64,000 bases of DNA from Caulobacteraceae bacterium. GTDB taxonomy: Bacteria; Pseudomonadota; Alphaproteobacteria; Caulobacterales; Caulobacteraceae. Positions 5,189-48,610 of this stretch are shown piece after piece (positions within the stretch are counted from its first letter, which is position 1; each line of letters starts with the position of its first letter). The DNA is taken from positions 1-64,000 of the forward strand of contig CANJMO010000004.1 in the NCBI GenBank assembly GCA_947475845.1, in the 5' to 3' direction. The position numbers were made by a program, and so were the translations under genes. The notes under the pieces were generated by a model that saw nothing but the letters and a program-made list of their open reading frames with translations, made no database searches and was not told the origin of the DNA.

Positions 5189-7766
<2,578 letters not shown>

Positions 7767-7770
<4 letters not shown>

Positions 7771-9083
7771 GGGTGGACCGGCGCCGTGTGGAACAGCGGG
7801 AAGGCTCCCGTTGCGATGGCGACCACGGTCATCACCACGGCGACCGCCACGCACCACTTCAGGGTCGTCTTCTGGTGGTCGGCCAGATCGACCCCGGCCA
7901 GGGTCACCAGCAGATAGGTGGCGGGCACAAGCGGGCTGGCCTGATGGAACGGCTGGCCGATCAGCGAGGCGCGCGCGATCTCCGCCGGGGTGATGCCGTA
8001 GTGGGCCCCGGCCTCGGCCAGGATCGGCAGCACGCCGTAGTAGAAGGCGTCGTTGGAGATGAAGAAGGTGAACGGCAGGCTCAGGGCCGCCGTGATCGGC
8101 GCGAGGTACGGACCGAGCGGGGCCGGCACCAGGGCCACCACGCTCCTGGACATGCCCTCGACCATGCCGGTGCCGTTGAGGATGCCGGTGAAGATGCCCG
8201 CGGCGAAGATCAGCGACACCACCGCCAGAACATTGGGCGCATGGGCGGCCACCCGGTCCTTCTGGTCCTGCAGGTTGGGGTAGTTGACGATCATGGCGAT
8301 GGAGAAGCCGAGCATCATCAGGATCGGCAGGGGCACGATCGCCAGGACGAGACAGACCAGCAGCACCACGGTCAGCGCGGCGTTGACCCAGACCATACTC
8401 GGCCGGCGGATCGCCAGGTTGGACGGCGCGCACAGGGTGTCGATGTCGGGCAGCTGATTGGCGCCGACCACGCCCAGGCGCTTGCGCTCGCTGCGCCCGA
8501 ACAGCCAGGCGACGAAGAACATGAAGGCGATGCCTGCGAACATCGCCGGGACCATGGGCACGAACAGGTCCGAGGCATCGAGCTTCAACGCGCTGGCCGC
8601 CCGCGCAGTCGGTCCGCCCCAGGGGATGATGTTGATCAGGCCGGTGGTGGTCATCACCAGGCAGCACAGCCGCCGACGGCTCATGCCCAGGCAGTCGTAG
8701 AGCGGCAGCAGGGCCGCGGTGGTGATGACGTAGGTGGTCGAGCCGTCGCCATCCATCGCGATCATAGCGGTCAGGGCGACGGTCCCCAGCGACACCTTCA
8801 TCGGATCGCCGTGCACCGCCTTGACCAGGCGTTTCACCACCGGGTCGAACAGGCCGACGTCGGTCATCAGGCCGAAGTAGAGGATGGCGAACATCAACAT
8901 GACCCCCGTGGGGGCGAGCGCCTTGATGCCGTCCAGCATCATCGGGCCGAGCTTGGGCGCGAAGCCGGCGATCACGCCGTACAGCACCGGGATCAGGATC
9001 AGGGCGACCAGGGCGGTCATCCGCTTGGTCATGATCAGGACCATGAAGGTCGCGACCATCAGGAAGCCGAGCGCGGTAATCAT
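7767..9083 (-). CDS. CitMHS-family citrate/tricarboxylate transporter
   Basis: A 438-residue inner-membrane protein with about 11-12 hydrophobic segments. The family mark is TAMIAMDGDGSTTYVITTAA near residues 104-123, with LINIIPWGGPTARAASAL in the middle. CitMHS proteins import citrate or related tricarboxylates as divalent-metal complexes with protons, and a Bacillus homologue is linked to trans-aconitate. It sits between a dehydrogenase and an aconitase in the operon, so it likely brings in the substrate of the pathway. AGGGA lies 6 bases before its ATG. Confidence 0.92.
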
Positions 9084-36688: not shown

Positions 36689-38791
36689 TCAGCGGGTCTT
36701 GGCCGCCGCCAGGTCGGTTTCGCAGGTCTTCAGGTCGGGGCAGTACAGCGGCGGCAGGCGTCCGCTGACAGGGTTCTTGTAAGAGAACCACATCGGTTTG
36801 ATGTCGGGCCAGCGCAGCACGTCATTGGGCGGGATCGAGCCGTGGTGGCGCAGGTTGAGGGTGTCGCGGTTGATGTCCGGCGGGAAGTTGCCCGTCGGCG
36901 CGATGTGCTGCTTGATCGGCGGGATTTTGGTCGGCTCGCCGGTCTTGCGCGACCACCCCGCCGCATAGCTGAACGATTCCAGATAGGGCTGGTCGGGCGC
37001 CGCCACGTCGAACTTCCACACCCCGTCCACCAGCTTGGCGGCGTTGTTGGGATAGAGCCCGTCAGAGATGCCGACGCCGTAGTCGGCGCTGGTGTTGAAG
37101 TGGATCAGGTAGTTGCGCATCCGCGCCGACCGGCCGTCTGGCGCCACGTCGATCACCGGCTGCACCATCCAGTGGCTGGCCGAGAACACCCGGGGCATGG
37201 CCGCCACCCCGTCGTAGCTGGTCTCGCAGGCCTCGGTGTGTTCGGGTCCGATGCAGAACGCCACCGCCAGCTTGGCGCGCCAGCCGTCCTTGGCCATCAG
37301 CTGGCCGAGGTCGCGCCACTTCTGGTCGTCGATGTCGTAACCGAGCGCGTGGCTGAGGTTGTCGGCGCCGACGTACGCGACCGACAGCGACAGACGCCGC
37401 CGGGCTTCCACGATGGCCGCCTCGATGCCGCCCGGCAACCCCTCGGCCTTGGCCAGACCGGTCGGCGCGCCCAGCAGCGATCCGCCGCCGACGGTCTTGG
37501 TTCCGGCCGGCATGACCACCGGCTTGCCGGTCACCGGGTTGCGGTCCAGGAACACCGGGATAGCACCATCGGTCAGGGCCCCGACATCCGCGGCGGGAAC
37601 AGGCCGATCGGGTTTCGCGGCGCCGGTGACAGCGGCCGTGACCAGCCGGTTCTTATGCCAGCCCTGGTAGTAGTCCGTGGCCATGATCGGAAAGTTGCGC
37701 AGCTCGCGGATGCGCCACTTGCCGTCCGCGCCCCGCACAAAGCGGTTGTCGAACACCGACAGGCCCCAGGCTGCGGTCCCGGCGTCGTAGTCGCCGAGAA
37801 GGTCGAACTGCGTCCCGCGCACCCGCGCCTGGGCGCCGTCGTCCGACACCGTCACGGTCTCGTTGAAATAGAGCCGGTTGTTAAGCTGCCCGCGCTTCAG
37901 CCCCTGCGGCCCGAACCGCTCGTAGGATCGGCGAATGCTTTTCGGCCCGACCCAGACCCCCGCGTCGGCCTCTTCCAGCACGCCGTCATCGGCAAACAGC
38001 TCGGCCGCGTCGTCCCACATCTTGCGATGGACGTAATAGCCGTAGGCGTTCTGCAGATTGAGGACCGTGTCCTCCGCGTTCATGCGGCCGATCCGCTTGT
38101 TCAGCCCCGCCAGCGCGGCGGCGGGCGCGCCCTTGATCGCCGGAATGGCCATGCCCTTGGGGATCGCCGGGATCGGCACCCCGGCCTGCTCGGCGGTGAA
38201 GCGGTGAGGGACCGTGACCACGGTGGGCGACACGCTCTTCCAGCCGGTCTCGTACGATCCGGCGGTGACCGGGAAATAGTGCAGGCGCGCGATCTTCCAG
38301 ATCCCGCCTTCCTTCACATAGTCGGCCTCGATGATGCCGCAGGCCCAGTTGGCGGTAGCCCCGTACTGGCCGGTCATCGAGAACTGCGACCAGCGTCCGC
38401 GCGCGGTCCGGCCGTCCGCCGCTAGATTGACCACCGGAATGTCGACCAGTTGGGTGTGCAACTGACCGGCGGCCAGGCCTTCACGCGCCCCGCCCCACGC
38501 GGCGCGGTAATAGCTCGCGATCGCCGCCGGTCCGCGCCGCTCATCGGCGCCGTAGATCGCCACGCCCATAGGGCTGAACAAGGACGCCATCTCGATCCAC
38601 AGGCCGGCCTGGGAATATTGCGCATACACCGTCTGCAGCCGGCGTACGGCGCGGATGTCCTCGGTGCGGGTGACCTCCAGCGACAGCCGGGCAACCTTGG
38701 CGGCAGGGGTTTGAGCGAAGGCGGGAGCGGTGGTGATCAGCACGCCGGACGCCAACAGGCCACGGCAGATCTTCCAGACGCGAGACGTCAT
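36689..38791 (-). CDS. Secreted multi-domain SnoaL/NTF2-like protein, copy 2
   Basis: A 700-residue paralogue of the downstream gene, collinear along its whole length. Matching phrases include IRAVRRLQTVYAQYSQAGLW, LNLQNAYGYYVHRKMWDDAA, the linker NPVTGKPVVMPAGTKTVGGG, LSHALGYDIDDQKW and a C-terminal WPDIKPMWFSYKNPVSGR ending in a Cys-x-Asp-x-Lys-x-Cys motif (CPDLKTC). The paralogue ends with CLDIKTC, so the two cysteines are conserved. The ATG at 38791 starts a proper signal peptide (to PAFAQ). It is first in a likely four-gene unit with copy 1, the cupin and the dehydrogenase. Confidence 0.75.
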   Translation of the reverse strand: MTSRVWKICRGLLASGVLITTAPAFAQTPAAKVARLSLEVTRTEDIRAVRRLQTVYAQYSQAGLWIEMASLFSPMGVAIYGADERRGPAAIASYYRAAWGGAREGLAAGQLHTQLVDIPVVNLAADGRTARGRWSQFSMTGQYGATANWACGIIEADYVKEGGIWKIARLHYFPVTAGSYETGWKSVSPTVVTVPHRFTAEQAGVPIPAIPKGMAIPAIKGAPAAALAGLNKRIGRMNAEDTVLNLQNAYGYYVHRKMWDDAAELFADDGVLEEADAGVWVGPKSIRRSYERFGPQGLKRGQLNNRLYFNETVTVSDDGAQARVRGTQFDLLGDYDAGTAAWGLSVFDNRFVRGADGKWRIRELRNFPIMATDYYQGWHKNRLVTAAVTGAAKPDRPVPAADVGALTDGAIPVFLDRNPVTGKPVVMPAGTKTVGGGSLLGAPTGLAKAEGLPGGIEAAIVEARRRLSLSVAYVGADNLSHALGYDIDDQKWRDLGQLMAKDGWRAKLAVAFCIGPEHTEACETSYDGVAAMPRVFSASHWMVQPVIDVAPDGRSARMRNYLIHFNTSADYGVGISDGLYPNNAAKLVDGVWKFDVAAPDQPYLESFSYAAGWSRKTGEPTKIPPIKQHIAPTGNFPPDINRDTLNLRHHGSIPPNDVLRWPDIKPMWFSYKNPVSGRLPPLYCPDLKTCETDLAAAKTR

Positions 38792-39057
38792 GTTTCCAGG
38801 CCCCCCACCGACCGCCGGCATCCCCACCGGCGCTCACGCTTGTTCTTTGCTCGGCCGCTCTGGACGACCGTTCGAAATTCCAACCTCGTCATAGTGCGAC
38901 GGCGCGGCTAGCCAAGCAATCAGTGATCAACGGCGGGGCGCCGTAGAGCTCTATTGACAGGCGTTGGGGCCGAGACGAGGGTTCCACCGCCGCCGGCCGC
39001 CTCGGGCGCCGGACGGAAAAGACCGAACTCATTCGGCGCATTTTGGGGGGACCACCC

Positions 39058-40180: not shown

Positions 40181-41404
40181 CTATGCCCGCGCCAGGGACA
40201 GTTGGATCACATCCGTTCGCCGGGTGCGGAAGCCCGCCTCGCAGTAGCCGAGATAGAACAGCCACAGGCGGCGGAAGCGCTCGTCGAAGCCGAGTGGCGC
40301 GATCGTGCTCCACTGCGCCTGGAAGCGTTCGGCCCACTCGGCAAGGGTGCGGGCGTAGTCCTGCCCGAACCGCGTGGCCCCCTGCCAGGTCAGGCCGGCC
40401 CCGGCGATCTCTTGGCGCAGCCGCGTCTCGGACGGCAGCATGCCGCCGGGGAAGATGTACTTCTGGATGAAGTCCGCCTGGCGCTTGTAGTCCTCGAACA
40501 GCTCGTCCTTGATGGTGATGATCTGCAGCCCCGCCCGGCCGCCGGGCTTGAGCAAGTCGCGGACCTTGGCGAAATAGGTCGGCCAATAGGCCTCGCCCAC
40601 CGCCTCGAACATCTCGATCGAGGCGATCCGGTCGAAGCGGCCCTGCACATCGCGATAGTCGATCAGCTTGATCTCGGCCCGCTCGGCCAGGCCCTGCTCG
40701 AACAGGCGCTTACGGGCGAAGTCGTACTGGGCCTGCGAGATGGTCACCCCGGTGACCTTGGCTCCGACGCGCGCGGCGGCATATTCGGCGAACCCGCCCC
40801 AGCCGCAGCCGATCTCCAGCACGCTGTGCGAAGCCTCCAGGCCCATGCTCTGGGCCAGGGCCGCGTACTTAGCTTCCTGCGCCCGCGGCAGGGGCTGGTT
40901 GGGCGCGGAGTACAGGGCCGAGGAATAGGTCATGCCCTCGTCCAGCCAGGCTCCGTAGAAGGCGTTGCCGAGGTCATAGTGGGCGTGGATGTTGTGCCGC
41001 GAACCCTTGCGGGTGTTGCGCCGCAGGGCATGCTTCAGCCCGTGGATCGCCCGCATCAGGGGGTTGCCGTCCACCAGCCGCTGCAGGCGGTCGAAGTTCA
41101 TCGAGAACACCTCCAGCAACAGGGGCAGGTCCGGCGTATCCCACTGCCCCGCCACATAGCTTTCGGCGAAACCGATGGCGCCCGAGGCCGCGACCCGGCG
41201 CACGAAGCTATAGTCGTTGATGATCATCCGCGCGGTCGGGCCCGGCTGCGGCCCATGGATAGTCATTTGGCGCCCACCCGGCAGCGCCACCTCCAGCGAG
41301 CCCTCGCCCCAGTTCTGCGACAGCACCTTGAACGCTGTCCGCACCATCGAGGGCGCCCCGCGCAAGGCGGTGTGGCCCATGTCCATCGGATCGGCGAATG
41401 TCAT
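40181..41404 (-). CDS. cfa: Cyclopropane-fatty-acyl-phospholipid synthase-family methyltransferase, copy 1
   Basis: A 407-residue SAM-dependent enzyme that methylates or cyclopropanates unsaturated acyl chains of membrane lipids. The SAM motif LEIGCGWGGFAEYAA is near residue 180, with HYDLGNAFYGAWLDEGMTYS before it and EMFEAVGEAYWPTYFAKV and IFPGGMLPS after it, as in full-length CFA synthases. The N-terminal domain with GSLEVALPGGRQMTIHG is present. ATG 41404 is chosen for its AAGG ribosome site. It is the last gene of the RpoE-ChrR operon. Closest by context are the CFA-like proteins of the singlet-oxygen response. Confidence 0.9.
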   Translation of the reverse strand: MTFADPMDMGHTALRGAPSMVRTAFKVLSQNWGEGSLEVALPGGRQMTIHGPQPGPTARMIINDYSFVRRVAASGAIGFAESYVAGQWDTPDLPLLLEVFSMNFDRLQRLVDGNPLMRAIHGLKHALRRNTRKGSRHNIHAHYDLGNAFYGAWLDEGMTYSSALYSAPNQPLPRAQEAKYAALAQSMGLEASHSVLEIGCGWGGFAEYAAARVGAKVTGVTISQAQYDFARKRLFEQGLAERAEIKLIDYRDVQGRFDRIASIEMFEAVGEAYWPTYFAKVRDLLKPGGRAGLQIITIKDELFEDYKRQADFIQKYIFPGGMLPSETRLRQEIAGAGLTWQGATRFGQDYARTLAEWAERFQAQWSTIAPLGFDERFRRLWLFYLGYCEAGFRTRRTDVIQLSLARA

Positions 41405-41426
41405 GCTGCGATACCTTCGATCCGGC

Positions 41427-41852
41427 TCAAGCGATCGCCCGTGCGGCCCAGGTGGTGATGAAATAGCTGGCCAGGGCGGCGACGGCGCTGGCGAAGGCAC
41501 CCCAGCACAGGTCCAGAACGGTGATCTTCAGGGACCAGATGCGCAAGGTGGCCTGGTTGGTCAGGTCGTAGGTGGCGTAGGCGACCAGGCCGAGCAACAC
41601 CCCGTTCAGCCCGGCCCGGCCCCACGAGCCCTCGGTCAGGGCCGGCCAGACCGCGAAATAGACCAGGCCCGCCAGGTAGATCAGGTAGAAGGCCATGGCC
41701 GGCGCCACCTGCACCTTGTCGGCCAGCATCGGCCCCAGGGCCGGCTTGTACAGCGACGGCCCGGTCAGGCTCAGCCAGCAGAAATCCAGGGCCGCGAACA
41801 CCACCATCACCGAGACGTAGGCGATGGCCGATTCCATGACGATGCGGGGCAT
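41427..41852 (-). CDS. DUF2177-family membrane protein
   Basis: A 141-residue protein with four hydrophobic helices. It matches DUF2177 by ALDFCWLSLTGPSLYKPALG near residues 21-40 and GLVAYATYDLTNQATLRIWS with a following DLCWGAFASAVAA. The function is unknown; the family is often adjacent to CFA synthases. It is 22 bp upstream of one CFA-like gene and 11 bp downstream of another, so probably a membrane partner of the lipid modification. Confidence 0.85.
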   Translation of the reverse strand: MPRIVMESAIAYVSVMVVFAALDFCWLSLTGPSLYKPALGPMLADKVQVAPAMAFYLIYLAGLVYFAVWPALTEGSWGRAGLNGVLLGLVAYATYDLTNQATLRIWSLKITVLDLCWGAFASAVAALASYFITTWAARAIA

Positions 41853-41863
41853 GTCCTATTTCC

Positions 41864-42925
41864 TCAGTCGTTGGCGCTGCGCGGATCGGGCGCGGGCGAC
41901 AGGCGATAGTGGCTGACGCCCCATTCGGCGCCCGCGGCGTGGCCGAACAGGCCGGCCACCGACAGGAAAAACAGCCGCCAGCGCCGCCGCCACAGCCCCG
42001 CGTCGGGGCCGTAAACCTCGGCCAGGATCTGGCGGATGCGCGCGTCGTTGCGGTCGAAATTGGCCAGCCAGTCCATCGCCGTGCGGCGGTAGTGCTCGCC
42101 GCTCCAGCGCCAGTCCTGCTCGACCTCGAACAGCGACCCGAACTGATGAATCAGATGGTGACTGGGCATCACCCCACCGGTGAAGAAGTGCTGGGCGATC
42201 CAGTCGGCCTTGTCGTTGCGGTCGAAGGCGTAGGGCGTCGTGCGGTGGGTGAACACGTGCAGGAACAGCCGCCCGTCGTCCTTGATCCAGCCGCGCACCC
42301 GCTCCAGCAGGGCCGGCCAGTTGGACATGTGCTCGAACATCTCCACCGAGACCACCCGGTCGAAACGCTGCCCGGCCAGGGCCGCGTCGTCGAGCTGGTT
42401 CATGTCGGCCGTGACGACCTTCAGATTGGTCAGCCCGCGGGCAACCATCTGGGACTGGATATAGAGCCGCTGCGAATTGGAGTTGGACACCGAGACGATG
42501 CGCGAATTGGGATAGTGCTCGGCCATCCACAGCGACAGCGAACCCCAGCCGCAGCCGAGCTCCAGCACGTCCTGCCCATCCATCAGGTCGGCGTGGTCGC
42601 AGGTCAGGGCCAGCGCCCGCGCCTCAGCCTGACCCAGGGTGTCGGTAGACCCGGCATAGAAGCAGCTGGAATATTTGCGGTGTGGACCCAGCGCCAGTTC
42701 GAAGAATTCGGCCGGCAGCTCGTAGTGCTGCTCGTTGGCTTCATCGGTGTTTTCGGCGATCGGATGATCGAGCATGCCTTGCGCGAACAGGCGCTCGGTT
42801 TCCGGCGGTAGGCGCTGCAGGCGCTTGTCGGCGGCGCCGCACAGGTAGTCTATGCCCATCAGGGTCAGCTTGTCCGGGCACGGCGTGCGCTCGAAGGCGT
42901 GGATGGCGGCGGCGAGGGCGTTCAT
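41864..42925 (-). CDS. Cyclopropane-fatty-acyl-phospholipid synthase-family methyltransferase, copy 2
   Basis: A 353-residue SAM-dependent methyltransferase from a different CFA-like branch than copy 1. It has HYELPAEFFELALGPHRKYS, the SAM motif LELGCGWGSLSLWMAEHYPN near residue 120, DRVVSVEMFEHMSNWPALLE, and FTGGVMPSHHLIHQF. It lacks the long N-terminal lipid-binding domain of classical CFA, so it may methylate a different acyl intermediate. This branch recurs next to flavin oxidoreductases and DUF1365 in sigma-E regulons (family knowledge). Confidence 0.88.
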   Translation of the reverse strand: MNALAAAIHAFERTPCPDKLTLMGIDYLCGAADKRLQRLPPETERLFAQGMLDHPIAENTDEANEQHYELPAEFFELALGPHRKYSSCFYAGSTDTLGQAEARALALTCDHADLMDGQDVLELGCGWGSLSLWMAEHYPNSRIVSVSNSNSQRLYIQSQMVARGLTNLKVVTADMNQLDDAALAGQRFDRVVSVEMFEHMSNWPALLERVRGWIKDDGRLFLHVFTHRTTPYAFDRNDKADWIAQHFFTGGVMPSHHLIHQFGSLFEVEQDWRWSGEHYRRTAMDWLANFDRNDARIRQILAEVYGPDAGLWRRRWRLFFLSVAGLFGHAAGAEWGVSHYRLSPAPDPRSAND

Positions 42926-42958
42926 GAGCGGGGCTCCTGCAGCCGCCCGGCTCGCGGC

Positions 42959-43762
42959 CTAGGCGGATCGTCCACGGGGCGGCCACAAGAAGAAGCGGCT
43001 GGTGCGCGCTTGGTAGTCGCGGAAGGCGTCGCCACGGCTCTTGAGCATCTGCGCTTCGAGCGGTGGAACGCCGTTGCCGCGGTCGAGCACCAGATACATC
43101 AGGACGGGAGCGCCCCATGCGGCCCAGCCTAGGAGGTATACGCTGCCGATCTGGGATGAGATCACCGGGTAGGCTAGCCAACCGAACCATTCGAAGAAAT
43201 AGTTGGGATGCCGCGACCAGGCCCACAGGCCGGCGTCATTGATCGCGCCCTTCGGCGGCTTCGACGCCTTGAAGCGGCGCATCTGCTCGTCGGCCAGACC
43301 CTCGCCCGCGATGGCCACGATCAGGATCAGAGCGCCCAGGGCATCCGCCACGCCGAGCCCGCCGCCAGGCGTCCGCGCCGCCAGCATGATCGCCAGGGCC
43401 AGCAGCAAAGCCACCGGCGCCTGCAGCAGGACGAACGGCAACAGCTTACTCTGAAACGCCGCGCCCCACTGCCCGCGCAGATCGACGTAGCGGCGGTCCT
43501 CGTCGGGCGATTTGGCCACGCGGATGGCGACATAGAGGCCCAGCCTCAGCGACCACACAGCGGTCAGACCGGCGACTAGCCATTGGCGCGCCGTCGGCGG
43601 CCCATCGACCGGCGCCAGGGACAGGACCACCCCGGCCAAGCCTGTCCCGAAGGTCCAGAACACATCGACCCAGCCGACGTTGCCGACCGCCCGCTGGTAA
43701 AGCCAGCCCGAGCCCATGATCGCCAGCAGGCCCAGGCCCACGACGGCGATCAGCGTGACCAC
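42959..43762 (-). CDS. DUF1295 membrane protein (steroid 5-alpha-reductase-like)
   Basis: A 267-residue integral membrane protein with about seven helices. The C-terminal half has the family motif GLWAWSRHPNYFFEWFGWLA and a later RGDAFRDYQARTSRFFLWPP, as in DUF1295 and steroid reductase-like proteins that reduce double bonds with NAD(P)H. It starts with GTG at 43762, 4 bp past the chrR stop, so it is translationally linked to the regulator genes. It probably takes part in the lipid pathway of this operon (inference). Confidence 0.87.
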   Translation of the reverse strand: MVTLIAVVGLGLLAIMGSGWLYQRAVGNVGWVDVFWTFGTGLAGVVLSLAPVDGPPTARQWLVAGLTAVWSLRLGLYVAIRVAKSPDEDRRYVDLRGQWGAAFQSKLLPFVLLQAPVALLLALAIMLAARTPGGGLGVADALGALILIVAIAGEGLADEQMRRFKASKPPKGAINDAGLWAWSRHPNYFFEWFGWLAYPVISSQIGSVYLLGWAAWGAPVLMYLVLDRGNGVPPLEAQMLKSRGDAFRDYQARTSRFFLWPPRGRSA

Positions 43763-43766
43763 GGCC

Positions 43767-44414
43767 TCACACTCTCAGGAAGGATTTGACCAGGCTCATC
43801 AGACCCGAGGTCTTGATGCCGCCCTGGCCCGAGATCAGGCAAATGCAGGCGCTGTCGCCATGCACCGACGGCGCGTGTTCCAGCCCCTCGCCGCTCTCGC
43901 CGAAATCGCCCGCCGCGAACACACTGTTGTCGTCGACGAAGGCGCCCTGCAGGACGGTGGTGAATTCCGGGCCGTGGTGGCCGTGATGGGGCATGGCGAC
44001 GCCCTGCGGCACGCGCATCAGATAGGTGCGCCAGCCGTCGGCGGCATTGGATTTGATCGGAGCCACCCAGATGCCGGGGCCGACCCAGCGGCGGGCGCCG
44101 ATCTCGCGGCGCGCCACGGCGGACGGCAGCGCCAGGCCGCCGATCGACTTGCTCACCGGCGTGGAGGCGCGACGCGCCGGCTGCGGCCGCTCGATCCCGG
44201 CCAGGGCGCGGGCCAGGGCGTCATCGGCCATATCGACCTGCTCTACATCGGCCAACAGGGCGCCGCCGACCTGCTCGAACAGGGCCACGCGGGAACGGCA
44301 CGCCGGGCAAAGGTCCAGGTGCGCCGACACCGTCAGGCTGGGGCCGTCCGCCAGGGCGCCCGAGGCGTAGCCCGCCAGGACCACTTCGGTGGGATGATGA
44401 CGCAGCCTACTCAC
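43767..44414 (-). CDS. chrR: ChrR-type zinc anti-sigma factor with cupin domain
   Basis: A 215-residue cytoplasmic anti-sigma factor. The zinc-binding anti-sigma motif His32-x3-Cys36-x2-Cys39 is in SAHLDLCPACRSR, within an N-terminal helical domain, and the C-terminal cupin shows MPHHGHHGPEFTTVLQGAFV with clustered His and Glu. That is the two-domain ChrR architecture, in which the cupin senses singlet oxygen or organic peroxide. The GTG at 44414 overlaps the sigma stop (GTGA), and the longer frame upstream is a shadow of the sigma gene. Confidence 0.93.
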   Translation of the reverse strand: MSRLRHHPTEVVLAGYASGALADGPSLTVSAHLDLCPACRSRVALFEQVGGALLADVEQVDMADDALARALAGIERPQPARRASTPVSKSIGGLALPSAVARREIGARRWVGPGIWVAPIKSNAADGWRTYLMRVPQGVAMPHHGHHGPEFTTVLQGAFVDDNSVFAAGDFGESGEGLEHAPSVHGDSACICLISGQGGIKTSGLMSLVKSFLRV

Positions 44415-45043
44415 AACAGGTCTTCCAATTGCGCGCGCAGCCGGACCATGGCCAGGCGCAGGCGGGACTTCACGGTGCCGAGGGGAACACCGAGATTCTG
44501 GGAAATCTCCGCGTGGGCCTTGTCGTGGAAGAACGACAGGCGGACCACTTCGGCTTGATCCGGGGGCAGGGTCTTGAGGGCCGTGCGCAGCTTCTGCTCG
44601 CGCTCGCCGGCGGACAGAGCATCGTCGGGGCGCGTCTCTTCGGCCGGCAACAGTTCCGGCTCGTCGATCAGGTCGTCGGGATGGCGTTCGCGGCGGATGG
44701 CGTCGATCCGCAGGTTCCGCGCGATGGTGAAGATCCAGGTCGAAGCGGAGGCCCGCGAGGGGTCGAAATAGGCCGCCTTGCGCCACACCGCGAGCAGGGT
44801 CTCCTGCGCCAGTTCCTCCGCCAGCTCTGGCTTGGCGCCCAGCTTCAGCAGGTAGCTTTTCACACGCGGGGCGAAGCGGCCGAACAGCAGGGCGAAGCTT
44901 TCGCGGCATTGCTTTGTGGCGATCGCCACGATCCAGGCCGAGGGGTCAGCGCGCTCATTGGCCTGGAACTCGGCCACGGTCTTCATCGGGTCGATCCACA
45001 GGGGCGGCGAGGCCGACGCGACCGGGCGCAGCGCCTGGGGCAT
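44411..45043 (-). CDS. rpoE: ECF sigma factor RpoE (ECF11, ChrR partner)
   Basis: A 210-residue sigma factor. Region 2 is seen in FALLFGRFAPRVKSYLLKLG, ELAEELAQETLLAVWRKAAY and TWIFTIARNLRIDAIRRERH; region 4 in LPPDQAEVVRLSFFHDKAHA then EISQNLGVPLGTVKSRLRLA. Several ATGs are in frame; the one at 45043 is preferred for its AGGA site 7 bases upstream and because a candidate promoter at 45097-45125 would start transcription near 45090. The frame itself opens at 45091. It heads an operon of chrR, DUF1295, CFA-like, DUF2177 and CFA-like genes. Confidence 0.9.
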   Translation of the reverse strand: MPQALRPVASASPPLWIDPMKTVAEFQANERADPSAWIVAIATKQCRESFALLFGRFAPRVKSYLLKLGAKPELAEELAQETLLAVWRKAAYFDPSRASASTWIFTIARNLRIDAIRRERHPDDLIDEPELLPAEETRPDDALSAGEREQKLRTALKTLPPDQAEVVRLSFFHDKAHAEISQNLGVPLGTVKSRLRLAMVRLRAQLEDLL

Positions 45044-45096
45044 CGCCCCGTCCTGTTCACCCATGCTGATCGCGATAAGCCCGACATTCATGCTCC

Positions 45097-45125
45097 CAGT
45101 ACGGGCCGGCTAGGCCAGCAGATCA
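45097..45125 (-). promoter_or_regulatory. Possible sigma-E promoter for rpoE-chrR operon
   Basis: On the minus strand TGATCT (45125-45120) is followed after 17 bases by GTACTG (45102-45097). The first box differs by one base from the TGATCC box of ECF11 promoters; the second is weak. It fits autoregulation, but is less convincing than the opposite promoter. Confidence 0.35.
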
Positions 45126-45150
45126 CAAGGCGCCTCTTTCCCAGCCTGAG

Positions 45151-45180
45151 TGATCCACGTCCAGCCCGCCCTCGTAAACC
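45151..45180 (+). promoter_or_regulatory. Sigma-E (ECF11) promoter for flavin oxidoreductase-DUF1365 unit
   Basis: TGATCC (45151-45156), an 18-base spacer and TAAACC (45175-45180) match the -35 TGATCC / -10 TAA-type consensus known for Rhodobacter RpoE. It is 24 bases before the start at 45205 and divergent from rpoE itself. Confidence 0.75.
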
Positions 45181-45204
45181 AAGGGTATTAAGGACGCCCG
45201 CAAG

Positions 45205-46551
45205 ATGACCGCCGAGCCGCACCGCACCCTCGACATCGCCATCGTCGGTCAAGGCATAGCGGGCATGTCGGCCGCATGGCTGCTGAGCCAGGGTCACCGC
45301 GTCACCATCTATGAAAGCGAGGACCGCATCGGCGGCCACAGCCAGACCGTCGAGGCCCCAAGCCCGCAGGGGCCGGTGCCGGTCGACATGGGCTTCATCG
45401 TATACAACGAGCTGGCCTATCCCAACCTGACGGCCCTGTTCAAACACCTGGACGTGCCGACCAAGGCCTCGGACATGTCGTTCTCGGTGTCACTGGACAA
45501 CGGCGGCTTGGAGTACGGCGGGGCCAATCTCAAGAGCTGGTTCGCCCAGCCGCGCAACCTGCTCAGCGGACGATTCTGGTCGATGCTGCGCGACCTCTAC
45601 CGATTCTACCGCATGGCTCCGGTCCACGCCGACGACCTCGACAGGTCCACCACGAGCCTCGGCGACTATCTGGACGCCAACCGCTACGGCGGCGCCTTCC
45701 AGGACGATCACCTGCTGCCCCAGGCCGCCGCCATCTGGTCGGCCTCGGTCGAGGAAATCCGCGACCTGCCGGCCGCCGCCTTCATCCGCTTCTGCCAGAA
45801 CCATGGCCTGCTCAAGATCGTCGGCCGGCCGATCTGGCGCACCGTCGACGGCGGCTCGCGCGCCTATGTCCGCCGCCTGACCGCTTCCTACAGAGACAAG
45901 GTCCGGCTCAACGCGGCCGTGCGCCATGTGCGCCGCCTGCCGGACGGCGTCCGCATCACCGACATCGAGGGCCGCACCCAGACGTTCGACCACGTGGTGA
46001 TCGCCGCCCACGCCGATCAGGCGCTGAGGATGCTCGAGGATCCCTCGGTCGAGGAAGCCCGCCTGCTGGGCGCCTTCCGCTACACCCGCAACCACGCCGT
46101 CCTGCATTCGGACGTCAGCCTGATGCCGCGCCGCAAGAGCGTGTGGTCGAGCTGGAACTACCTCGGCAAGGCGGCCCAGACCGGCGCCGGTCGCCAGCTG
46201 TGCGTCACTTATTGGATGAACAAACTGCAGGGCCTGCCGGACTCCACGCCGTTGTTCATGACGCTCAACCCGATCCGCCCTCCGAAATCCGGGACCCTGA
46301 TCCGGACCGAGGTGTTCGAGCACCCGCTGTTCGACGCCGCCGCCATGGCCGCGCAGAAGGAGCTGTGGTCGCTGCAGGGGGCCAATCGCACCTGGTTCTG
46401 CGGCGCCTATTTCGGGGCCGGCTTCCATGAGGACGGCTGTCAGGCGGGCCTGGCCGTGGCCGAGCAACTCGGCGGCGCGCGCCGTCCCTGGACCGTGCAG
46501 GGCGAGTCAGGCCGCATCCATCTGACCCGGCCCGAGCCGGTGGCCGCGTGA
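45205..46551 (+). CDS. NAD/FAD-binding amine-oxidase-like oxidoreductase
   Basis: A 448-residue flavoprotein. The N-terminal dinucleotide motif is seen in IAIVGQGIAGMSAAWLLSQG, then ESEDRIGGHSQTVEA; the substrate region includes VDMGFIVYNELAYPNLTALF and the C-terminal FAD contact CGAYFGAGFHEDGCQAGLAV. This type sits next to DUF1365 and CFA-like genes in many bacteria, and the Rhodobacter counterpart is in the sigma-E singlet-oxygen regulon. It likely oxidises or desaturates a modified acyl chain (inference). It is divergent from rpoE and follows a sigma-E promoter. Confidence 0.88.
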   Translation: MTAEPHRTLDIAIVGQGIAGMSAAWLLSQGHRVTIYESEDRIGGHSQTVEAPSPQGPVPVDMGFIVYNELAYPNLTALFKHLDVPTKASDMSFSVSLDNGGLEYGGANLKSWFAQPRNLLSGRFWSMLRDLYRFYRMAPVHADDLDRSTTSLGDYLDANRYGGAFQDDHLLPQAAAIWSASVEEIRDLPAAAFIRFCQNHGLLKIVGRPIWRTVDGGSRAYVRRLTASYRDKVRLNAAVRHVRRLPDGVRITDIEGRTQTFDHVVIAAHADQALRMLEDPSVEEARLLGAFRYTRNHAVLHSDVSLMPRRKSVWSSWNYLGKAAQTGAGRQLCVTYWMNKLQGLPDSTPLFMTLNPIRPPKSGTLIRTEVFEHPLFDAAAMAAQKELWSLQGANRTWFCGAYFGAGFHEDGCQAGLAVAEQLGGARRPWTVQGESGRIHLTRPEPVAA

Positions 46552-47330
46552 CCGACCGGCACGCCTCGGGCCTATATTCCGGCGTGGTCGCCCACGCCCG
46601 CTTTCGCCCGCGCGTGCACCGCCTGCGCTACCGCATCTTCATGCTGCTTCTGGACCTGGACGAGGCCGAAAGCCTCGGCCGCCGGCCCAAGCTGTTCGGC
46701 TACAATCGCCGCGCCCTGATCGCCTTCCGCGACCGTGACCACCTGGCCGGCGACGGCCGCACCCTGCGCAGCCAGGTCGAGAGCGAACTCCTCGCCGCCG
46801 GCCTCGATCTTGGCGGCGGCGCCATCCGCATCCTCAGCATGCCGCGCGTTCTGGGTTTCGTGTTCAACCCGATCAGTGTCTTCTTCTGCCACCATGCCGA
46901 CGGGACGCTCGGCGCCACGCTGTACGAGGTCAACAACACCTTCGGCCAGCGCCACACCTACCTGATCCCGGTCTCACGGGCCGAGGCGCGTCAGGACGTG
47001 ATCGCCCAGGCCTGCGACAAGGCGTTCCACGTCTCGCCGTTCATGGAGATGGCGATGCGCTACCAGTTCCAGGTGGCGCCGCCCGGCGGGGAAGCCCGGC
47101 TGATCGTCGATGCCCATGACGCCGAGGGCCAGATGTTGGCGGCCTCGTTCCGCGGCAAACGATCCGAGCTAACCGACAAGGCCATCGCCCACGCCTTCAT
47201 GGCCCACCCGTTACTGTCGATCGCGGTGCTGGCCAGCATCCACTACGAAGCGGTCAAGCTGCTGCTCAAGGGCATGCGGCTGAAACCGGCCCCGCCCGCG
47301 CCCTCCAGCCCCGTGTCGGTCGTCCGCTAG
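46548..47330 (+). CDS. DUF1365-family protein
   Basis: A 260-residue protein with the DUF1365 pattern: SGVVAHARFRPRVHRLRYRI, FGYNRRALIAFRDRDHLAGD, SMPRVLGFVFNPISVFFCHH and NNTFGQRHTYLIPVS. The GTG start at 46548 overlaps the upstream stop (GTGA), so it is coupled to the flavin oxidoreductase. Its end overlaps the end of the opposite-strand dioxygenase by 4 bp. The biochemical role is unknown; genomic pairing suggests it works with the oxidoreductase on lipids. Confidence 0.9.
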   Translation: MTDRHASGLYSGVVAHARFRPRVHRLRYRIFMLLLDLDEAESLGRRPKLFGYNRRALIAFRDRDHLAGDGRTLRSQVESELLAAGLDLGGGAIRILSMPRVLGFVFNPISVFFCHHADGTLGATLYEVNNTFGQRHTYLIPVSRAEARQDVIAQACDKAFHVSPFMEMAMRYQFQVAPPGGEARLIVDAHDAEGQMLAASFRGKRSELTDKAIAHAFMAHPLLSIAVLASIHYEAVKLLLKGMRLKPAPPAPSSPVSVVR

Positions 47331-48610
47331 GTCTTGGCCTCGACCTTGTCGCGGCTCTCCGCCCCGGCCACCGAATAGAGCACCTGGCTGTTGCGGGTCT
47401 TCTGGAACTCTTCCAGCGTCTGACCGCGCATGTGCGAATAGACGTGCAGGTTCGAAACCCCCGACACCGCCGCCAGCTTCTCCAGCACGAAGAAGATCGC
47501 GCCGTACTGCATCATCGCCCGCCAATCCAGGCGGCGGATCATGTCACGCTCCTGCTCGGTCAGCCCAGCCTTCTCGAACGACGCTTCCGGGTCGGCCTTG
47601 AAGGCGGCGCGGTGGTCCGGCTTGACCAGATCATGCAGGAACCGATTGAGCCGGTAGTAGGCGACGCTGCGGTCCAGATCGAAGGGATAGGTGCCCTCCA
47701 GGTTTTCGATGCCGCGCAGCTGCTCGGCCGACTTGGCGCGCTCGGCCTTGGCCAGCTCGGCCGACATAGGCTCGGCCTGGTTCTCGTAGATGGCGGTGAC
47801 GATGGCGGTCATCGACGGCAGGTAATAGGTGCGGTGCAGGCACTTGATCCCCGCCGACATCGCCCCGCGCGCCAGCAGCCACATCACCACTTCGGAGCTT
47901 TCCATCCCGCCCAGCCGGGCATGGTCGGCATGGGTCATGCGGGTCAGGGCGATGGGGTCGTTCTCCAGCAGTTCGAGGAATTCCTCGTCCCAGGCCGGAT
48001 TGTTGAAACCGCACCGCTCGCCCTGCACCTGGTGCGACAGGCCGCCGGTGGCGACCATGGCCACGGTGATGTCCTCGGGATAGCTCTCGATGGCGTTGCG
48101 GATCGCCTGACCCAGATTGTAGCAGCGCTTGGCGCTTGGCACCGGGAATTGCAGCACGCCGCATTGCAGGGGGATGATCGGGATCGGCCACTCCGGCTCG
48201 TGCGGCATCATCATCGACAGCGGCGAGAAACAGCCGTGGTCCAGGTCGCGGTTCTGGAAGAACGACATGTCGAATTCGTTGGCCATCAGCGAATTTCCGA
48301 TGTGCTTGGCCAGCTTGCTGTGGCCCTTGATCGGCGGCAGGTCGCGGCGTCCGCCGCCTTCGTCCGCCACCTTCCACTCTTCCCCGATCCCCAGCACGAA
48401 GGCCGAGTAGTGATCGAAGAAGAACGAGGTCAGGTGATCGTTGTAGACCACGATCAAGGCGTCCGGCTTCTTATCGCTCAGCCAGGCCTGAATCGGCTCA
48501 TAGGCCTTGAAGATCGGGGCCCAAACCGGATCGTTCTGTTTCTTGCCGTCGTAGGCGAAGCCGATGGTCGGGGTGTGGGACGTGGCGATCATGCCGACGA
48601 TGCGGGCCAT
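47327..48610 (-). CDS. galA: Gallate dioxygenase-type extradiol ring-cleavage enzyme (fused LigB-LigA)
   Basis: A 427-residue type II extradiol dioxygenase. The N-terminal LigB part (residues 1 to about 280) has the iron-binding pattern SHTP with His12, YNDHLTSFFFDHYSAF, LDHGCFSPL and VATGGLSHQ; the C-terminal part (about 300-427) is LigA-like, with YRLNRFLHDLVKPDHRAAFK and LTEQERDMIRRLDWRAMMQY. LigA and LigB in one chain of this length is the gallate dioxygenase (GalA/DesB) architecture, which opens gallate to 4-oxalomesaconate. Protocatechuate or a substituted relative is possible. No hydratase or aldolase for the next steps lies in the window. Confidence 0.85.
   Translation of the reverse strand: MARIVGMIATSHTPTIGFAYDGKKQNDPVWAPIFKAYEPIQAWLSDKKPDALIVVYNDHLTSFFFDHYSAFVLGIGEEWKVADEGGGRRDLPPIKGHSKLAKHIGNSLMANEFDMSFFQNRDLDHGCFSPLSMMMPHEPEWPIPIIPLQCGVLQFPVPSAKRCYNLGQAIRNAIESYPEDITVAMVATGGLSHQVQGERCGFNNPAWDEEFLELLENDPIALTRMTHADHARLGGMESSEVVMWLLARGAMSAGIKCLHRTYYLPSMTAIVTAIYENQAEPMSAELAKAERAKSAEQLRGIENLEGTYPFDLDRSVAYYRLNRFLHDLVKPDHRAAFKADPEASFEKAGLTEQERDMIRRLDWRAMMQYGAIFFVLEKLAAVSGVSNLHVYSHMRGQTLEEFQKTRNSQVLYSVAGAESRDKVEAKT

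Follow-up and report, generated by a model that had tools for sequence, protein, structure and literature searches.

An apparently autoregulated sigma-E/ChrR island in a Caulobacteraceae bacterium with a predicted route to dimethyl-furan fatty acids

Results

The locus described here occupies positions 40181 to 47330 of the window, by which we mean the whole 64,000-nucleotide stretch of a Caulobacteraceae contig (CANJMO010000004.1) that was analyzed. All of the genes that the original prediction had named on the two strands are intact open reading frames with strong family matches. The minus strand carries rpoE, encoding an ECF11-type sigma factor (44411 to 45091), chrR, encoding an anti-sigma factor with zinc and cupin domains (43767 to 44414; TIGR02451, 157.8 bits against a cut-off of 124.5), a gene for a DUF1295 membrane protein of the 5-alpha-reductase/ICMT superfamily (42959 to 43762; PF06966, E 2e-57), the CMAS-like methylase gene CFA2 (41864 to 42925; CMAS family match, E 4e-41), a gene for a small DUF2177 membrane protein (41427 to 41852; PF09945, E 2e-43), and CFA1, encoding a CFA-like fatty-acyl methylase (40181 to 41404; PF02353, E 9e-83). 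The plus strand carries a gene for an FAD-dependent oxidoreductase of the amine-oxidase type (45205 to 46551; PF01593, E 4e-28), followed by a DUF1365 gene (46548 to 47330; PF07103, E 2e-75). Same-strand neighbors overlap by up to 4 bp or are separated by up to about 33 bp, consistent with two operons. A scan for sigma-70 promoters detected none, and a terminator scan returned fewer terminators than expected by chance.

The regulatory genes form a pair of the ECF11 kind, in which an ECF sigma factor gene is followed by chrR, and the Rhodobacter sphaeroides SigE and ChrR structures are the best matches. The top PDB match of RpoE is SigE (2q1z, E 1.3e-39), and the alignment of ChrR to its R. sphaeroides counterpart (2z2s) spans the length of the protein and shows conservation of the H/H/C/C positions and of the cupin H-x-H, E, and H positions. 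The 113-bp intergenic gap contains a divergent pair of predicted sigma-E promoters of the form TGATCY-N16-CGTA. The one facing ufaD-ufaO (45151 to 45180, plus strand, 54 bp upstream of the ufaD ATG) can be written as TGATCC-N18-TAAACC or TGATCC-N16-CGTAAACC and is the promoter proposed originally, which is conserved in relatives and proves to be half of a pair. The other, TGATCT-N16-CGTA (45100 to 45125, minus strand), lies 34 bp upstream of the rpoE ATG, a spacing (34 to 35 nt) that recurs at nine other loci. With so short a spacing, the rpoE mRNA is predicted to be leaderless. A predicted autoregulated promoter of the TGATCC-N16-CGTA type, equivalent to TGATCC-N18-TAA, is found on both intergenic strands. 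The pair has the same position in many relatives and also occurs in Shinella and Ensifer.

The genome-wide motif scan proposed with the original prediction, a search by sequence pattern, returned 11 strict sites in 2.65 Mb, from which rate the chance of one strict site per strand in the 113-bp gap is about 5e-8; the looser pattern TGATCN-TAMR gave 38 unspecific sites. Strict sites elsewhere in the genome lie upstream of a photolyase gene, an aldehyde dehydrogenase gene, and a second chrR. The first two of these sites, along with those of rpoE and ufaD, are shared by a sister species. The original prediction had missed this distal regulon, as well as the rpoE-side promoter and the FufM identity of the second CFA-like gene. 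Of 39 related loci, 16 have the motif upstream of ufaD, and almost every one of these 16 has rpoE beside or near ufaD. Some relatives have ufaD-ufaO-ufaM with neither a local rpoE nor the motif, so sigma-E control is not universal. A further motif occurrence within DUF1295, ahead of fufM (43164 to 43139), was rejected as a promoter, as protein conservation could account for its persistence.

The proposed sigma-E/ChrR control of the CFA-like, flavin oxidase, and DUF1365 genes is supported. It is rather unlikely that such a regulon chiefly answers organic hydroperoxides or metals, as partly reported for the Caulobacter sigma-E/ChrR system, with furan lipids as a side branch. In favor of this reading, the NCBIfam ChrR model NF051881 is described as cadmium, peroxide, and UV responsive, although the ChrR of the window scores under its cut-off. 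Against it, few parts of the regulon are conserved as well as the furan genes, on which ChrR turnover in singlet oxygen depends in R. sphaeroides (PMC6852236).

The proposed link to methylated furan fatty acids is supported by orthology, as CFA1, the oxidoreductase, and the DUF1365 protein are orthologues of UfaM, UfaD, and UfaO, respectively. CFA1 is 50% identical to UfaM of both Rhodopseudomonas and Cereibacter johrii, the predicted methylated-acyl desaturase UfaD is 47 to 48% and 44% identical to its counterparts in these organisms, and UfaO, the predicted enzyme of O2-dependent furan formation, is 45 to 47% and 38% identical. The Rhodopseudomonas and Cereibacter genomes named here were reached by a contig search with CbbM (form II Rubisco). 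For this pathway, which has been proven by experiment, the Rhodopseudomonas palustris genes assigned to UfaM, UfaD, UfaO, and FufM in PMC7380195 are RPA2569, RPA2571, RPA2570, and RPA0924, respectively, and strain R. palustris XCP has the same UfaM-UfaO-UfaD run. Up to 11% of "11-methyl C18:1" has been reported for strains of Brevundimonas, also Caulobacteraceae (PMC8551962), which is consistent with the product of UfaM.

The second methylase, CFA2, is 59% identical over 345 amino acids to the R. palustris XCP gene that adjoins DUF1295, and its profile is nearer to plant coclaurine-NMT-like enzymes (282 bits) than to Escherichia coli CFA (140 bits). Apart from UfaM, XCP has just two full-length CMAS genes; their identities to C. 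johrii UfaM are 37% and, for the gene matched by CFA2, 28%, and identities to R. sphaeroides UfaM of 38% for RPA3082 and 26% for RPA0924 are given in PMC7380195. We infer that the XCP gene adjoining DUF1295 is the orthologue of RPA0924 (FufM; UniProt Q6NBA4), because its identity to UfaM matches that of RPA0924; the assignment was thus made through a related strain and the agreement of these percentages rather than from the CGA009 sequence. Rather than a cyclopropane synthase, CFA2 is an apparent orthologue of FufM, the methylase by which Rhodopseudomonas forms dimethyl furan fatty acids.

An alternative is that the locus, like the R. sphaeroides regulon, governs formation of a monomethyl furan, and that CFA2 acts on another substrate, for example as an N-methyltransferase, so that no dimethyl furan is formed. 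The top profile scores of CFA2 are indeed plant coclaurine and pavine N-methyltransferases, and just one FufM has been assayed. We nevertheless regard this as quite improbable, as CFA2 shares both its sequence and its DUF1295 neighbor with the putative FufM gene and sits within a furan regulon, and a plant homologue, Arabidopsis FUFM1, was itself named on homology to FufM (PMC10940516). With FufM included, the locus would encode the complete characterized route to dimethyl-furan acyl chains.

Both genes of the "two different CFA-like enzymes" originally proposed are present, but they belong to two distinct methylase families, neither of which resembles cyclopropane synthase. In E. coli CFA, bicarbonate is bound by Cys139, Glu239, His266, Ile268, and Tyr317 (E. 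coli numbering); CFA1 has Ser139 and Gln266, and CFA2 has Ser139 and Phe268. Cyclopropane synthesis by either gene was rejected on these active-site residues. Relative to E. coli CFA, CFA1 carries the changes C139 to S, H240 to A, and H266 to Q, a signature that the UfaM orthologues share (with S or A at position 139) and that is absent from two true Cfa proteins. Ser139/Ala240/Gln266 thus offers a simple sequence test that separates cyclopropane synthases from methylases of the UfaM type, two groups that often receive the same annotation. A generic membrane-stiffening island is very improbable. In that reading, both CFA-like genes, each matching the CMAS Pfam family, would serve cyclopropane fatty acid formation, with a loose association of the flavin oxidase, DUF1365, DUF1295, and DUF2177. 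Against it, CFA1 is without two of the bicarbonate-binding residues and matches UfaM orthologues there, CFA2 groups with FufM and the plant enzymes, and Rhodopseudomonas has ufaD-ufaO-ufaM as one run.

The suggested membership of DUF1295 and DUF2177 in the pathway is supported by co-occurrence and conserved promoters. DUF1295 co-occurs with FufM in 8 of 8 genomes and is 51 to 55% identical to the DUF1295 protein encoded beside fufM in Rhodopseudomonas. DUF1365 accompanies DUF2177 in all but one of the 19 DUF2177-bearing genomes of the class (18/19), and DUF2177 has its own sigma-E-type promoter at five loci, including those of Shinella and Ensifer. This linkage to the furan pathway looks to be unreported. 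For an ene-reductase assignment of DUF1295, we looked for a significant profile match together with a PNY..E cofactor motif; steroid 5-alpha-reductases (7c83, E 0.0009; 7bw1) matched weakly, as did ICMT methyltransferases. A profile search of DUF2177 against the PDB gave no match, and single-sequence AlphaFold models were poor (pLDDT 49.5 for DUF1295 and 56.6 for DUF2177).

Discussion

We conclude that the locus is likely an autoregulated sigma-E/ChrR (ECF11) stress island with a dimethyl-furan fatty acid route and with DUF1295 and DUF2177 as accessory members. The zinc- and cupin-domain ChrR with its sigma factor, the two divergent sigma-E-type promoters, and the orthologues of UfaM, UfaD, UfaO, and FufM can be read directly from the sequence; the sequence of events that they imply is predicted. 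Singlet oxygen or organic peroxide would lead to loss of ChrR, and the freed sigma-E would fire both divergent promoters. UfaM would then methylate vaccenoyl chains of phospholipids, UfaD would desaturate the product, UfaO would add oxygen from O2 to give a monomethyl furan, and FufM would put on the second methyl group, so that the acyl chain ends up with a dimethyl furan. These furans may act as singlet-oxygen scavengers and in turn influence the turnover of ChrR, and DUF1295 and DUF2177 would be accessory members of the sigma-E/ChrR regulon.

Furan methylation probably does not require DUF1295, since R. sphaeroides given fufM alone makes dimethyl furan (PMC7380195) although its close relative C. 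johrii is without DUF1295. A deletion of RPA0923 was made in the same study, and we found no discussion of it in the main text, as far as that was covered. As a speculation, the most likely role for DUF1295 is to reduce a C=C bond of an acyl product that comes from a furan, or of a related acyl product. We also put forward, as a doubtful extension, that DUF1295 and DUF2177 are unrecognized parts of a furan-lipid cycle extending from alphaproteobacteria to green algae. In such a cycle, DUF1295 would be an NADPH ene-reductase for the enedione that forms when singlet oxygen is quenched by a furan acyl chain. Ring closure of the 1,4-diketone so produced could restore a furan, and DUF2177 would assist in the membrane. 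If true, the furan scavenger would be renewed rather than consumed. A single 7-kb block holds every characterized dimethyl-furan fatty acid gene, the regulator, and two orphan membrane families, and it makes testable both the roles of DUF1295 and DUF2177 and whether furan lipids are consumable or renewable singlet-oxygen traps.

The joining of regulator and enzymes at one locus is not the novelty that it was first taken to be, as Cereibacter shares the divergent arrangement at the core of the locus, and islands nearly identical to it occur on megaplasmids of Rhizobiaceae. The R. sphaeroides regulon (RSP_1092-1093, the ufaD-ufaO operon RSP_1091-1087, and ufaM, RSP_2144) resembles that of the window in its sigma/anti-sigma pair, its promoter class, its three enzymes, and a photolyase in the response. 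The divergent layout of rpoE-chrR and ufaD-ufaO is likewise shared, as observed in C. johrii and as the locus-tag order in R. sphaeroides indicates (RSP_1093-1092 / 1091-1087; PMC7074977 and PMC7380195). Unlike R. sphaeroides, the window has ufaM, fufM, DUF1295, and DUF2177 inside the rpoE-chrR operon, and its island is without counterparts of RSP_1089-1087. R. palustris (RPA2569-2571 and RPA0924) has all four enzymes and a fufM adjoining DUF1295, but its genes are split over two loci, whereas those of the window form one sigma-E island; the sigma-E motif was not found in the stretches of R. palustris XCP examined. The Rhizobiaceae islands (Shinella sp. H4-D48 p1, Ensifer sp. PDNC004, and Rhizobium johnstonii pRL12), for which a literature search found no published description, share rpoE-chrR with fufM, the FAD oxidoreductase, and DUF2177. 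DUF1295 is annotated beside fufM in Shinella and R. johnstonii, and DUF1365 is annotated in Shinella and Ensifer. These islands differ in an extra DUF2147 gene and, in Shinella and Ensifer, in a divergent DUF2177 with its own promoter. Finally, in Chlamydomonas under singlet oxygen, CFA1, a coclaurine-NMT-like "CFA2," DUF1365, DUF1295, and DUF2177 are co-induced in a SAK1-dependent manner (PMC4067076). The families are those of the window, although the organism is a eukaryote with dispersed gene identifiers and another regulator, and we found no furan lipid chemistry for it in the consulted passages of that source. The matching gene set suggests that an answer obtained for the bacterial block would extend to photosynthetic eukaryotes.

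Results

Family searches recovered every gene of the predicted island intact. From 45091 downward, rpoE-chrR-DUF1295-CFA2-DUF2177-CFA1 follow one another on the minus strand, divergent from an FAD oxidoreductase gene (ufaD, 45205-46551) and a DUF1365 gene (ufaO, 46548-47330) on the plus strand, both assigned by family match; rpoE/chrR and ufaD/ufaO each overlap by 4 bp. The sigma factor has R. sphaeroides SigE as its top structure match. ChrR exceeds the NCBIfam threshold of the ChrR anti-sigma-E family and is alignable with R. sphaeroides ChrR (2z2s) along its length, retaining the zinc-site residues (two His, two Cys) and the cupin ligands. The flanking genes, encoding a triple SnoaL-like protein (36689-38827) and a large extradiol-type dioxygenase-like protein (47327-48610, convergent with ufaO with a 4-bp overlap), are apparently not tied to the regulon.

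The furan fatty acid route demonstrated in R. sphaeroides and R. palustris comprises UfaM (vaccenoyl methylase), UfaD (FAD desaturase), UfaO (DUF1365, which uses O2), and FufM (second methylation) (PMC7380195). Comparison genomes were picked by a form II Rubisco (CbbM) scan, and their CMAS, DUF1295, and DUF1365 genes were then located. CFA1 is 50% identical both to UfaM of Cereibacter johrii, a close relative of R. sphaeroides, and to the Rhodopseudomonas gene adjoining ufaO-ufaD; identities to the Rhodopseudomonas and C. johrii proteins are 48% and 44% for UfaD and 47% and 38% for UfaO. R. palustris strain XCP has two further full-length CMAS genes, whose identities to C. johrii UfaM are 37% and 28%; the 28% gene adjoins DUF1295 and is 59% identical to CFA2. 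Because these values match the 38% and 26% identity to R. sphaeroides UfaM given for RPA3082 and RPA0924 (FufM) (PMC7380195), the sequence case that CFA2 is FufM is strong, though inferred. RPA0923 and RPA0924 deletions are described singly and jointly (PMC7380195), which is consistent with the DUF1295 neighbor in XCP corresponding to RPA0923.

Active sites were compared by alignment with E. coli CFA, whose numbering is used here. In CFA1 and the UfaM orthologues of related loci, Cys139 is replaced by Ser or Ala, His240 by Ala, and His266 by Gln, whereas all three are kept in both true Cfa proteins of Rhodopseudomonas. Cys139 and His266 are bicarbonate ligands in the E. coli enzyme, and their loss fits a methylase that closes no cyclopropane ring. 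FufM proteins retain His266 and have Phe at 268; the FufM-type profile scores 282 bits against coclaurine N-methyltransferase structures versus 140 bits against CFA.

The predicted TGATCC-18-TAAACC promoter lies at 45151-45180. When the ufaD/rpoE gaps of relatives were compared, the motif could be refined to TGATCY-N16-CGTA, which is present on each strand. Its minus-strand copy (45125-45100) is 34 nt ahead of the rpoE ATG, and since a spacing of 34 to 35 nt recurs at nine related loci, the rpoE transcript may be leaderless. The motif precedes 16 of 39 ufaD and 13 of 21 rpoE genes at related loci, where about 0.01 one-strand matches are expected by chance per 410-bp upstream region. A scan of the window's genome for this motif gave 20 matches, against 6 for a control pattern. 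Among the genes that follow these sites are rpoE, ufaD, a photolyase gene (contig C20 near 19.8 kb; L281, L291; TGATCC-N16-CGTA 35 nt ahead of the ATG), a second chrR, and an aldehyde dehydrogenase gene. The rpoE, ufaD, photolyase, and aldehyde dehydrogenase orthologues of the sister species (G002) also lie behind a copy of the motif.

The second chrR (L290:6533-7222; contig C1 near 107.5 kb) is an orphan with no adjoining rpoE. Its product, 66% identical to the island ChrR, is possibly an extra negative-feedback anti-sigma factor, and the gene has its own motif 35 nt ahead of the start. The aldehyde dehydrogenase (contig C41 near 25.2 kb; L288, L292) is of the succinate-semialdehyde type and might remove lipid aldehydes. 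A PlsC-type acyltransferase-like gene has the motif 35 nt ahead of its start in G002 (L313, contig C125), an arrangement not found in the window's genome. Within DUF1295, upstream of fufM, TGATCT-N16-CGTATACC (43139-43164) is shared with the sister species and could either serve as a promoter within the gene or simply reflect conserved codons. On Rhizobium johnstonii pRL12, a sigma-E-type motif lies ahead of folE, adjoining the island (L293:11841).

The divergent arrangement recurs in the window's own family, with local losses, and relatives of the island occur on Shinella, Ensifer, and Rhizobium megaplasmids. Across 190 genomes sampled from the whole class, DUF1295 was present in all 8 FufM genomes versus 25 overall (Fisher P = 3e-8) and DUF1365 in 18 of 19 DUF2177 genomes versus 93 overall (P = 1e-5); these counts ignore shared ancestry, and the seeds of the underlying alignments (A1, A3) are partly the linked genes themselves. 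fufM directly adjoins DUF1295 in the window's genome and in four others (G064, G079, G169, G195). For L091, L092, L099, Shinella, and Ensifer, a separate sigma-E-type promoter is predicted ahead of DUF2177. In L092, DUF2177 and ufaO (7500-8234 and 8241-8642) are same-strand neighbors with such a motif upstream, divergent from ufaD. DUF1365, DUF1295, and DUF2177 matches are also present in Caulobacter vibrioides.

The best matches of the DUF1295 profile are steroid 5-alpha-reductases (E = 0.0009 and 0.007), followed by the AtTam46 chain, ICMT, and delta-14 sterol reductase, in a superfamily that spans NADPH ene-reductases as well as methyltransferases. A PDB profile search returned no solved relative of DUF2177.

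Discussion

For this organism, gene expression, the lipids made, and the turnover of ChrR are inferred. Stress would remove ChrR, sigma-E would turn on both operons, and the four enzymes would convert vaccenoyl chains to mono- and dimethyl-furan chains, which would quench singlet oxygen and drive additional ChrR turnover, as proposed for R. sphaeroides (PMC6852236). The first step is probably active in related Caulobacteraceae, because "11-methyl C18:1" reaches up to 11% in Brevundimonas strains (PMC8551962).

DUF1295 is probably not needed for furan methylation, since fufM alone is described as sufficient in R. sphaeroides (PMC7380195) and a gene search of the C. johrii genome found no DUF1295. 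The most specific proposal, a speculative one, is that DUF1295 acts after singlet-oxygen attack, reducing the ring-opened enedione. We found no mention of DUF1295 and furans together in the literature searched, in which only three papers mention DUF2177. The main value of the island is a readily testable hypothesis on these two orphan families.

The photolyase gene behind a sigma-E-type motif has a counterpart in the R. sphaeroides singlet-oxygen response, which includes the photolyase gene phrA (PMC7074977). In Chlamydomonas, the listed SAK1-dependent singlet-oxygen-induced genes include CFA1, CFA2 (also labeled coclaurine N-methyltransferase), DUF1365, DUF2177, and DUF1295 (PMC4067076), and the Arabidopsis lipid-droplet methyltransferase AT4G33110, which shares 38% identity with FufM, has been named FUFM1 (PMC10940516). 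The system as such is already known; its compact layout with FufM, DUF1295, and DUF2177 appears to be an undescribed variant.
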